Notes under the pieces: generated by a model
Database searches by the model: none
What the model was told of the DNA's origin: nothing
What the model saw: only the letters and a program-made list of their open reading frames with translations
In this document: positions 6,144 to 9,795 of the stretch, piece after piece
How positions within the stretch are numbered: position 1 is the stretch's first letter
Layout: each line of letters starts with the position of its first letter
NCBI GenBank assembly: GCA_021160245.1
Contig: JAGHCW010000228.1
Span: 1-9,795 of the forward strand
Direction of reading: 5' to 3'
DNA from: a bacterium
GTDB lineage: Bacteria > B130-G9
Length of the DNA: 9,795 nucleotides
Made by a program: the position numbers and the translations under genes

Positions 6144-6401
6144 ATGCCCATCTACCCTCTGTTAAACAAACTCGGAAAGACATTACGGAGCAAAAGGGCA
6201 ACCCGCGCCGGTTTCCTGCTCTCGGCCATCATCGCCGCCCTGTCCCTTTCTGGCCTCGTGACGCTTATCGCCGCCGCCCCAGATCGATTGCAGGGCCGAC
6301 TCGCCGCTCTGTTGCTGGAGAACTACCAGCTTCTTGTCTATCTTCTATTCGCGTCTGTCCTAGCCGCAGCCTTCATAGCAACCCGGTCCGAGCGGCTTTG
6401 A
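6144..6401 (+). CDS. N-terminal membrane segment of the interrupted ILEI/PIG-V gene
   Basis: An 85-codon frame ending in TGA at 6399-6401. After a basic start (NKLGKTLRSKRATR) it has two membrane helices, about 23-45 and 61-80. There is no Shine-Dalgarno before the ATG. An in-frame TTG 39 bases upstream (6105) is a worse alternative because it lies in the putative -35 box. The frame is the same as that of the large gene downstream, and the codons after the TGA continue as plausible protein. I therefore read it as the amino end of that gene rather than as a separate small protein. If it is independent, it is a two-TM protein of unknown role. Confidence 0.5.
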   Translation: MPIYPLLNKLGKTLRSKRATRAGFLLSAIIAALSLSGLVTLIAAAPDRLQGRLAALLLENYQLLVYLLFASVLAAAFIATRSERL

Positions 6402-6512
6402 GGCGCCAAGATTCCGGGTTTCGAGGCGATTGTCAGCCGCATCAGAGAAATTTGGGCTAAGACCGCCCTGACCACGCCTGTATGGTTCAGACTATCCGCT
6501 ATCGCCGCCATA
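6399..6512 (+). other. In-frame TGA and coding-like junction joining the two parts
   Basis: The TGA at 6399-6401 is the only stop between 6144 and 8556. The 37 codons after it (6402-6512) include an Arg/Lys-rich amphipathic stretch (SRIREIWAKTALTTPVWF) and the first half of a helix, LSAIAAI, that is completed by MVAFVLLIALS after 6513. By hand count about two thirds of these codons end in G or C, as expected for a coding segment here. The only conventional start in this segment's frame before the large domain is the ATG at 6513, inside the helix and without a ribosome-binding site. A single C-to-T change (CGA to TGA) would explain the stop. Confidence 0.6.
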
Positions 6513-8558
6513 ATGGTCGCGTTCGTTCTCTTGATCGCGTTGAGCCGGGGAGACACGTCCGAGCTCCGGGCGGTCACGATAGAGCGTGAAGACATCAATA
6601 TGCCTCAGATAATTGCCGAGTCGAGGGCGGTCGGCGTTAACGGCTTCTCCCGATGGCGAGTCGGAGACAACGTTCAATACGTGAGCCATCCGGGCTTTGG
6701 AATATCTATCATCGACCGGAGAAACGGTGACATCGCCTGGCAAGGCGCCGTCCGCGATGACAACATCGACGAGGCGCGCAACCTGGGCCGTTATCTCGCT
6801 CTGTGTCCAGATGATGTCCTGGTCGTCATCACCGGGCACTGGCTAACGCCGCGATTCCTTTCCAAAGAGCTGGAGACGTTGCTCAAGGACTTGGGCGGCC
6901 GGCAGATTGAGAAGGGCTTTGATAAAAGCGGCTATGTTCTCATATCCGAGCGAAAGGCCGGCCGGTTCGAGAGAGTCGCGGAGCAAGTTGGCGATCATCT
7001 CATTGTGGCCGTCAATCCTAACATCGTTATGAGAGCCTATTTTCTCTTTAGAATCGCCCTGCCGGCAATAAACGTCCTCGCTCTCTACGTCATTCTCATC
7101 TTGCTCGTCGCGGCTTTCACAAGGGCTAATCACTCCGTCAGTTGGCCGGATTCATTCAGATATGCCTTAATAGGAGCGCCTATACTCGGAGCTCTCTTGC
7201 TGGGACTCGTTCGCTATCGGCCTCTATTCGTATCGGCAATGGGCCTAGTTATCGCCATTGGCGCCTACATACTCTATCGCGAGGCGTTCTCGTATCGACG
7301 TCCATGGCTATACAAGACCCTCATCGTCCTGCTCGCGATCGTGGCGTTCTCCAACCAGCTATTCCTCGGCAAGAATTATAGCTTCGTCAGCCTGCTTGTC
7401 ATGTCCGCAGCCGTATATCTTATATGCAAGACCTATTCCCATCTCTTTGGCTCAACGCGCTGCGTGAGCTTTCCACTCCTGGTCTTCTTCGCGACGCGTA
7501 TCCCCCTTGCCGCAGTCGCATACATAAGCAGACTCTATCTGCACGGCGGGCCGAAATCGCTGCGAGAATTACTCGTCCACTGGGACGCTGCCTACTATCT
7601 GGGAATAGCATCTGAGGGTTATCATCTGCGACTCGCGGACTGGTCCCCAGCGCCGTTCTTTCCGCTTTTCCCTTTCATCATAAGGACATTCAATCTCATC
7701 TGGGACGATATCACGGTTGCAGGAGCGCTGGTCGCGAATCTCGCCTTCCTGATTTCCCTCATATTGTTATATCTTCTGGCGAGACGTCGATGGGGCGAGA
7801 GTGTTGCCGAGAGGTCCGTATTCTTAATGGCATTGGGACCTGCCTCGTTCTTCTTCTTGGTGGGCTATACGGAATCGCTCTTTCTTCTCTGCTGTCTGGC
7901 CTGTTTCACCTTCGTACTTGACAGGAAATGGCTATGGGCAGGGGTTTTGGGTGGCCTGGCAACGATAACAAGGTCCTTGGGCCTTATCTTGTGCGCTGTG
8001 GCAGCGTGGGAGTATCTGAAGAGTATTGATTACCGTCCGTTTAGGATTCGCGCCTCGGTGGCCTGGCTGATGCTTATCCCCCTGTGCCTCGGCCTTTTTG
8101 TCTTCGTCCAATACGGCTCCACCGGCGACATGTTCGCAAACGTAACTGCACAGAAAGTCTGGGGCAGGCAGCCGATGCAGAATCCTATTTCAGTGTTGGT
8201 CAGAGACTGGGGGGGAGTTGATTTCAATATCTCTCTGCAAAGCATAAGCAAGCTGCAGGTTACAATAGCAGACGGCGCATGCATCGTTGCCGCGTTTCTC
8301 GCCCTTATCTTAATCGTGCCAATAGGCCGTGAGCTCGGCATTGCGTGCGCGATATTCGTGGGCTTGGGCGCGTTGCTGCCCTTATCAACGGGGACTCCTA
8401 ACTCCATGCTCAGATACGCTCACGTGCTCTTCCCGATCTTCATCTGGCTTGGCATCAAGACTAGGAAAGAAAGAACCTTCATGGCGCTGATTGCCGCTTT
8501 CCTTATGATCTTGGTCTTTTTCACCATACTGCATATTAATGGCATACTCATAACCTGA
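6513..8558 (+). CDS. ILEI/FAM3-like domain fused to a PIG-V-type GT-C mannosyltransferase-like protein
   Basis: 681 codons from the ATG at 6513. Residues 1-11 are the end of a membrane helix. Residues 38-150 resemble the ILEI/FAM3 domain (interleukin-like EMT inducer; also the POMGnT1 stem): GFGISIIDRRNGDI, LGRYLALCPDDVLVVITG, LETLLKDLGG, SGYVLISERKAGRFE. After about six membrane segments (174-340) comes a PIG-V-like core: HWDAAYYLGIASEGY (356-370), with the W-D pair known to matter in PIG-V, then FFPLFP (382-387), GPASFFFLVGYTESLF (442-457), TRSLGL (486-491) and TPNSMLRYAHVLFPIF (628-643). Such enzymes move mannose from a polyprenyl-phosphate donor at the outer membrane face; the acceptor is unknown. 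The true N-terminus probably includes 6144-6512 (about 804 residues with the TGA read). Stop is TGA. Confidence 0.85.
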   Translation: MVAFVLLIALSRGDTSELRAVTIEREDINMPQIIAESRAVGVNGFSRWRVGDNVQYVSHPGFGISIIDRRNGDIAWQGAVRDDNIDEARNLGRYLALCPDDVLVVITGHWLTPRFLSKELETLLKDLGGRQIEKGFDKSGYVLISERKAGRFERVAEQVGDHLIVAVNPNIVMRAYFLFRIALPAINVLALYVILILLVAAFTRANHSVSWPDSFRYALIGAPILGALLLGLVRYRPLFVSAMGLVIAIGAYILYREAFSYRRPWLYKTLIVLLAIVAFSNQLFLGKNYSFVSLLVMSAAVYLICKTYSHLFGSTRCVSFPLLVFFATRIPLAAVAYISRLYLHGGPKSLRELLVHWDAAYYLGIASEGYHLRLADWSPAPFFPLFPFIIRTFNLIWDDITVAGALVANLAFLISLILLYLLARRRWGESVAERSVFLMALGPASFFFLVGYTESLFLLCCLACFTFVLDRKWLWAGVLGGLATITRSLGLILCAVAAWEYLKSIDYRPFRIRASVAWLMLIPLCLGLFVFVQYGSTGDMFANVTAQKVWGRQPMQNPISVLVRDWGGVDFNISLQSISKLQVTIADGACIVAAFLALILIVPIGRELGIACAIFVGLGALLPLSTGTPNSMLRYAHVLFPIFIWLGIKTRKERTFMALIAAFLMILVFFTILHINGILIT

Positions 8559-8790
8559 TGGGCCACCGGCGCTGTCCTAGTCGCGAGGGACGTACTTCTC
8601 TAGAGCCGGCCCAAGCGGTGTCTCAATGAAGAGTCGTCGAGGCTTGTCATGCAATGTGCCATGTCATCAAGGGCTGAGCCGTTGGGTCGGGGCGGTTTAG
8701 CGAGTCTTCGTGCTTGCTGTTGATGAACTGATGGAGCCTCGACAAGATGATCCGTTGTGGTTCCCCTGAGGCTCGTTTATTATTCGGACA
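8559..8790. other. Intergenic gap between the two glycosyltransferase-like genes
   Basis: A 232-bp gap with no supported gene. It holds a possible promoter near its right end and a perfect but widely spaced 9-bp inverted repeat (GTCGAGGCT at 8636-8644, AGCCTCGAC at 8735-8743). No U-tract terminator was found after the stop at 8556-8558. The gap suggests the second gene has its own promoter rather than tight operon coupling. Confidence 0.5.
8755..8783 (+). promoter_or_regulatory. Possible promoter of the second membrane glycosyltransferase gene
   Basis: TTGTGG (8755-8760, three of six), a 17-nt spacer and TATTAT (8778-8783, five of six). The -10 ends 7 nt before the ATG at 8791, so transcription would begin at or next to the start codon. 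Confidence 0.35.
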
Positions 8791-9795
8791 ATGCCAAAGA
8801 TGAATCCTAAACTAGCCTCATTCTTAGCCGTGTGCTGCCTCTTCCTGGTATGCACGTTCGTGTTTCTGTATCCGTACTCGTTTGACCCGGCGCATACGGT
8901 GAGCGACGCTGGAGACCCGCTGCTCAACGTCTCGACCCTTTGGCTAGTCCAGCAGCACCTCGCGAAAGGAGAAATACTCGACATCTACGAGGCGGACTAC
9001 TGGTATCCCCGAAAGGGCGTCCTGGCATACTCGGAGATCATGCTGCCAACTGCCATAATCGCGTGGCCCGTCGCGGCGATCACCGGCAACCCAGTTCTGG
9101 CCTATAATTTCTCCTTTCTGCTGGCCTATTTCCTTACCGCTCTGTTTACATTCCTGCTCGTCAGGCGACTGACCGGCTCGTCCTTAGCCGGCATAGTCTC
9201 CGGCCTGCTCTTCGCCTTCTGCCAGTGGCGGCTCCATCGTCCGGCGCACCTTCAACTACTGACGAATCAGTGGGCGCCTCTTGTGATGCTCTTTCTGCAC
9301 AAGTTCTGGGATACACGGCGATTGAGGCATATCGTCATAGCAGCGTCGTTGTTCGCCATCCAGACGATGAGCTGCATCTACCTCGGCCTAATATTCTCAG
9401 TTGGTGTAGGGATATCGTTCCTCTTCATTGGAATTTCGCACTATCGGGACGACTTGACAGCCTCTTTGACCGCAAGTCGTAGAACAAGACGCTACCACCG
9501 GCAATGGATCGCTGCACGAGAGGCGGTGCAACCCATGGTTATCTTTGCGCTTGTATCAGCAGTTCTTCTTGTACTGCCCTTATGGCCTTATTTACGGATG
9601 TCGCATCTGCTTTCGAAGTCGCGCTGGGGTAGCGATGGTGCTGACCTTATGTCTTACATCCTCACTGACCAGATTCTGTACGTTAACTTCGTTGCAGTTG
9701 CCCTGGTTGTTCTGGGTCTTATTTTGTGGCGCAAACATCCACGCTCAAGCCGCAATCGGTCCGCGCCAGTGGGATACTGGTCAACCGCTTTGAAA
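8791..9795 (+). CDS. Large polytopic membrane protein, GT-C glycosyltransferase-like (C-terminus cut by window edge)
   Basis: 335 codons, open to the window edge with no stop. An N-terminal helix (about 8-28) is followed by an extracytoplasmic loop with acidic residues, HTVSDAGDPLLNVSTLWL (35-52, D39 and D42), and WYPRKGVLAYSEIMLP (71-86). Several helices follow (about 87-98, 103-124, 131-143, 159-170, 181-215, 247-267 and 298-313) with HRPAHLQLLTNQWAPL (149-164) between two of them. The early Asp-containing loop and the N/Y-P-x-G-x-L-x-Y-S-E pattern match large uncharacterised GT-C-type membrane proteins, probably using a polyprenyl-phosphate sugar donor; no specific family is claimed. The start is ATG 8791 or ATG 8800; neither has a good ribosome-binding site. 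An in-frame TGA at 8767 bounds the gene upstream. Confidence 0.75.
   Translation, partial: MPKMNPKLASFLAVCCLFLVCTFVFLYPYSFDPAHTVSDAGDPLLNVSTLWLVQQHLAKGEILDIYEADYWYPRKGVLAYSEIMLPTAIIAWPVAAITGNPVLAYNFSFLLAYFLTALFTFLLVRRLTGSSLAGIVSGLLFAFCQWRLHRPAHLQLLTNQWAPLVMLFLHKFWDTRRLRHIVIAASLFAIQTMSCIYLGLIFSVGVGISFLFIGISHYRDDLTASLTASRRTRRYHRQWIAAREAVQPMVIFALVSAVLLVLPLWPYLRMSHLLSKSRWGSDGADLMSYILTDQILYVNFVAVALVVLGLILWRKHPRSSRNRSAPVGYWSTALK

Follow-up and report, generated by a model that had tools for sequence, protein, structure and literature searches.

Human protein O-mannose beta-1,2-GlcNAc transferase 1 (POMGnT1) carries an N-terminal stem with the ILEI/FAM3 fold, and its soluble catalytic part, of the GT-A type, uses UDP-GlcNAc. 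The fold has been studied almost solely in this stem and in human secreted signalling proteins. POMGnT1 binds beta-linked GlcNAc via Arg129, Asp179 and Arg207; other sugar binders with this fold are FAM3A, FAM3C and an FAM3-like domain from a nematode, and how FAM3 proteins work at the molecular level has been reported as unclear (PMC9802357). The POMGnT1 stem additionally binds fukutin (PMC8478517). In the GT-C glycosyltransferases, an acidic residue in the first lumenal/periplasmic loop is a hallmark (PMC6801728), and large GT-C enzymes (AftD, potentially YfhO) have outer carbohydrate-binding domains which, according to PMC8035078, are thought to bind acceptor polymers. The protein described here follows the same design, although the passage on these enzymes makes no mention of an ILEI-type accessory domain. 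PIG-V (GPI mannosyltransferase II, GT76, PF04188) and its bacterial homologues share with our protein an Asp loop of the HWD type and the motifs FFPL.P, TR..G and Arg-Tyr; the bacterial homologues found are mostly about 380–550 aa long and, unlike our protein, none of the matches covers an ILEI region.

The gene studied is located in a stretch of 9,795 nucleotides (the window), which constitutes one whole contig (C214) of a 3.43-Mb genome in 244 contigs, assigned through its relatives to the phylum Candidatus Coatesbacteria. Four genomes of this phylum were compared, and one of the relative loci is the public record QMNL01000120.1. The initial annotation took as the gene an ORF of 681 aa on the + strand (6513–8558). 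This ORF exists, but it covers just the 3' portion of a longer, interrupted gene (6144–8558; this and all features below are on the + strand), which, read by alignment with uninterrupted relatives, has 804 residues and one in-frame TGA (6399–6401). The relatives, from two Coatesbacteria, encode 798 and 806 aa without interruption, keep the whole architecture and share 58% and 44% identity with the part from 6513 to 8558. The 5' part as far as the TGA (6144–6401) consists of 85 codons and was assigned because it is homologous to the relatives' N-termini and has two transmembrane helices. The first ~120 residues of the relatives align upstream of 6513, straight through the TGA. The sequence from the TGA to 6513 contains no in-frame ATG, GTG or TTG, and transmembrane helix 3 (6486–6542, from hydropathy and model helix 113–128), which precedes the ILEI domain, includes the ATG at 6513. 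The gene is therefore read as 6144–8558 with one nonsense codon. The 681-aa ORF as a complete protein was ruled out by the same homology across the TGA.

At the position of the TGA the two relatives have CGC and CGA, both encoding Arg, so that the stop is most simply explained by one C-to-T change. TGA also terminates two other genes in the window and is thus not recoded; a selenocysteine or otherwise recoded reading was ruled out on this ground and because the aligned residue is Arg. Mutation, variation within the population or an error in the assembly would account for the nonsense codon. Because it removes the first two helices, the copy in this genome is probably non-functional, or else a variant of the assembled population. 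We give about even chances to the window gene being a pseudogene, with its ILEI and GT-C pair functionless in this genome, as would follow from a stop after codon 85, the lack of a usable start before 6513 and an ATG buried within a transmembrane helix. However, no second in-frame stop or other disabling change was found in the 718 codons downstream of the TGA, a single-base error in the metagenome assembly or a population variant would look identical, and this reading bears on the window copy only, not on the family.

The region 6570–7019 (residues 143–292 of the read-through protein) is an ILEI/FAM3-fold domain of the FAM3-type beta-beta-alpha kind; in one of the intact relatives this domain is encoded by L002:1444–1938. 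When the window protein was searched alone, its match to Pfam ILEI (PF15711; E 0.094, 13.7 bits) was under the cut-off of 27 bits, both relatives were likewise under the curated cut-off in single-sequence searches, and phmmer of the single window protein against the PDB gave nothing useful. Because the Pfam match was weak, profile comparison and folding were used. The ILEI part of a family profile of 3 rows (the window protein and the two relatives) matched 11 other bacterial ILEI domains with an hhalign probability of 97.6% (E 2.8e-12), and the best match of the 3-row family alone in a PDB profile search was FAM3B (2yop, E 0.012). AlphaFold2 modelling of the segment encoded by 6546–7034, from an alignment that included other ILEI domains, gave pLDDT 84.8 and pTM 0.83. 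All 21 Foldseek matches of this domain model with E of 0.001 or less were POMGnT1, FAM3A/B/C or TMEM2, and in VIA comparison with the PDB the POMGnT1 stem, FAM3A/B/C and TMEM2 scored Z 15.5 to 10.3, followed by the first unrelated row at Z 3.3; the top score was to POMGnT1 5ggf (Z 15.5 over 135 residues at 2.7 A). In a full-length model used as control, whose ILEI region draws on little more than the three family rows, residues 152–291 again adopted this fold (Z 14.4 to 5ggf). The N-terminal ILEI-like domain that had been proposed from the sequence is therefore borne out by the profile comparison, the predicted fold and the likeness to the POMGnT1 stem, with POMGnT1, FAM3A/B/C and TMEM2 as the sole strong PDB matches, although a single-sequence Pfam search would have left it undecided.

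Residues 436–802 (7449–8549) are a GT-C core of the PIG-V/PMT_2 kind. In Pfam, the window protein scores above the cut-off for PMT_2 (E 1e-8), and PIG-V (PF04188) is absent from its matches; the two relatives match both PMT_2 and PIG-V, the latter with E 3.7e-11 and 1.8e-10 (43.5 and 41.2 bits versus a cut-off of 22.4). An alignment of 18 proteins, comprising the three family members and 15 homologues from other genomes and numbered by the 804-residue read-through, showed that Asp481 (in HWD), Tyr493, Pro507, Pro566 and Arg757 (in the Arg-Tyr motif) are invariant in all 18. The HWD motif (7578–7586) is in the first outer loop, and its Asp481, the presumed catalytic residue, follows the first core helix of the model (439–467), the place where the GT-C acidic residue is expected. 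In the model, residues 436–802 superimposed by VIA on Pmt4 (Z 20.7), ALG12 (Z 19.9) and ArnT (Z 18.9). The PIG-V-like core of the initial annotation thus stands on the Pfam matches, the invariant Asp and Arg and a GT-C fold at Z of about 20, with the reservation that PIG-V itself is matched above the cut-off by both relatives but not by the window protein, which scores to PMT_2.

Five transmembrane helices (7074–7448, model helices 311–435) connect the ILEI domain to the GT-C core. In the full-length model, the chain passes through six transmembrane helices on its way from the ILEI domain to the HWD loop, and the two therefore lie on the same side of the membrane; the Lys/Arg-rich N-terminus and the segment 84–112 fall on the cytoplasmic side. 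The model has a pTM of 0.56 and helices 1–8 mostly have pLDDT 40–60, so the placement of the ILEI domain relative to the core is unreliable. The window also contains an RseC gene (by Pfam) and an LptC-like gene slightly below the Pfam cut-off. Since these genes fit a two-membrane envelope, the outer side, on which the ILEI domain and the active site would be located, is most likely the periplasm, judging from gene content.

The gene product may be an inverting GT-C glycosyltransferase with a PIG-V-like core, presumably dependent on a polyprenyl-phosphate sugar, and is probably a mannosyl- or other hexosyltransferase at the outer face of the inner membrane. Its ILEI domain, placed between transmembrane helices 3 and 4, would face the active-site side and could dock either a partner enzyme or an acceptor, be it a glycan, a glycolipid or a glycoprotein, next to the GT-C site, in a manner analogous to the roles proposed for the POMGnT1 stem and, in PMC8035078, for the AftD/YfhO accessory domains. 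The protein differs from POMGnT1 in having a multi-pass GT-C core and in the loss of the GlcNAc-binding triad. The spacing of the triad on the POMGnT1 stem sequence (50 and 28) agrees with the published numbering, and comparison with the stem placed Pro (6690–6692), Trp (6840–6842) and Lys (6924–6926) in the window protein at the positions of Arg129, Asp179 and Arg207, respectively. The corresponding residues in the two relatives are Ser/Asp/Asn and Pro/Gly/Lys, so the triad is lost there as well. The Coatesbacteria family thus has the fold of a glycosyltransferase stem with the known sugar site absent. The Arg and Asp of the triad are retained in other bacterial fusions (L075, L076, L078, L079 and L082).

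It was suggested in the initial annotation that the domain holds the acceptor sugar as in POMGnT1. The fold and the shared outer side with the active site agree with this suggestion, but the Pro/Trp/Lys replacement does not, which leaves the proposal partly supported. A true lectin, with a beta-linked GlcNAc or mannose from the acceptor bound in the canonical pocket, would be in keeping with the sugar binding of FAM3C, FAM3A and the nematode domain (PMC9802357) and with the modelled position on the active-site side; nevertheless, since the three pocket residues are replaced in the window protein and unconserved in the two relatives, we regard it as improbable. The same loss fits a structural or protein-protein module, serving folding, dimerisation or enzyme recruitment without binding sugar, as do the lower conservation of the ILEI region (38–40%, versus more than 50% across much of the GT-C core), the binding of fukutin by the POMGnT1 stem (PMC8478517) and the occurrence of ILEI on proteins that are not glycosyltransferases. 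Such a module is nonetheless somewhat doubtful, since the recurrence of ILEI on enzymes that transfer sugars argues for a connection with glycans. By analogy, the most likely role of the ILEI domain would be docking of an acceptor or partner via a surface other than the POMGnT1 pocket; with the residues of that pocket lost, the docking surface would differ from it. Taken as a whole, a GT-C enzyme whose ILEI module docks an acceptor or partner near the active site, present as an interrupted copy in the window genome, has in our estimate an even chance of being the correct description.

The fusion of an ILEI domain to a PIG-V-type GT-C core in bacteria, as the initial annotation had read it, is real and common to the two relatives, as judged by profiles and predicted folds. 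In the sets surveyed, an N-terminal ILEI domain followed by PIG-V was seen in three Coatesbacteria genomes only: it had no match in the fourth Coatesbacteria genome (86% complete), none in 290 genomes outside the phylum, and none in 149 genomes of one phylum rich in PIG-V homologues, 118 of which encode PIG-V homologues whose matches do not span the ILEI region. ILEI domains themselves are more widespread, with matches in 26 of 386 genomes across bacteria, 22 of these outside Coatesbacteria. ORFs checked by Pfam showed ILEI joined to YfhO in 5 genomes and a PMT_2 protein with two ILEI copies in 1 genome, while three more ILEI proteins are multi-pass membrane proteins whose membrane part has no Pfam family. 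In the phylum of genome G146, 9 of 14 genomes have two ILEI domains in one frame of ~1200 aa, and both frames examined encode YfhO proteins. The YfhO and PMT_2 proteins (L073, L074, L076, L080, L081 and L082) likewise combine ILEI with a GT-C membrane enzyme but differ from the window protein in that the ILEI domain is C-terminal, in one or two copies, and attached to other GT-C subfamilies, some of them keeping the Arg and Asp of the triad. Genome G203 (L076:270–6454) has its YfhO-ILEI gene ~2 kb from a PIG-V gene; the frame in between, of 567 aa, contains two repeats that resemble each other, and all three are on the same strand within ~6 kb. ILEI was also detected on secreted multidomain proteins and CotH proteins.

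The initial annotation did not know the combination as a described system. The literature searched contained nothing on point for bacterial ILEI or ILEI-GT-C proteins, nor a description of ILEI as a GT-C accessory domain; however, a related design is discussed for AftD/YfhO in PMC8035078, and ILEI-GT-C fusions recur elsewhere; what was seen solely in the three Coatesbacteria, among the genomes surveyed, is the N-terminal ILEI plus PIG-V arrangement. GT-C enzymes that carry an extra domain on the outer side are a known design, of which this arrangement is a new form. The wider pattern of repeated fusions between ILEI and bacterial GT-C enzymes is of more interest than the window gene, and it offers a simpler, testable setting for the basic role of the fold. 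An ambitious and rather unlikely extension is that ILEI/FAM3 is an old, widespread acceptor-guiding GT-C module joined independently to the YfhO, PMT_2 and PIG-V types, that the POMGnT1 stem and the FAM3 'cytokines' descended from this accessory role, and that the Coatesbacteria form has acquired a new ligand site.

All four Coatesbacteria genomes carry ILEI domains. Two of the proteins (L085:3500–6907, on contig C52 of the window's genome, and L086:3367–4788, on its contig C147) combine TPR repeats with one or two ILEI domains and a single hydrophobic segment at the N-terminus. A third (L087:4937–6808, on contig C207 of the same genome) is a 624-aa multi-pass protein with an apparently circularly permuted ILEI domain, the usual first strands coming last, at the end of the protein. 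A domain like this one is found in the other three Coatesbacteria genomes (L011, L012 and L014), twice beside a Ppx/GppA-like gene.

The last ~150 codons of the window gene and ~70 bases past it (8102–8629) are 84% identical to L088 6883–7411, the locus of one of the relatives, whereas the rest of the gene mostly shows 45–65% DNA identity to that relative, and synonymous divergence falls from saturated to 0.2–0.6 in this stretch. As each of the two genomes contains this stretch only once, its high identity suggests, from the comparison of the two sequences, recombination between species. Downstream of the gene, on the same strand, is a second gene for a GT-C-like membrane protein (8791–9792; PTPS_related, E 2.1e-6), which is truncated by the end of the contig. 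Its first part (8832–8889) matches 58 bases of L088 (4848–4905) at 78%, and these bases are located directly upstream of the ILEI-PIG-V gene of the relative.
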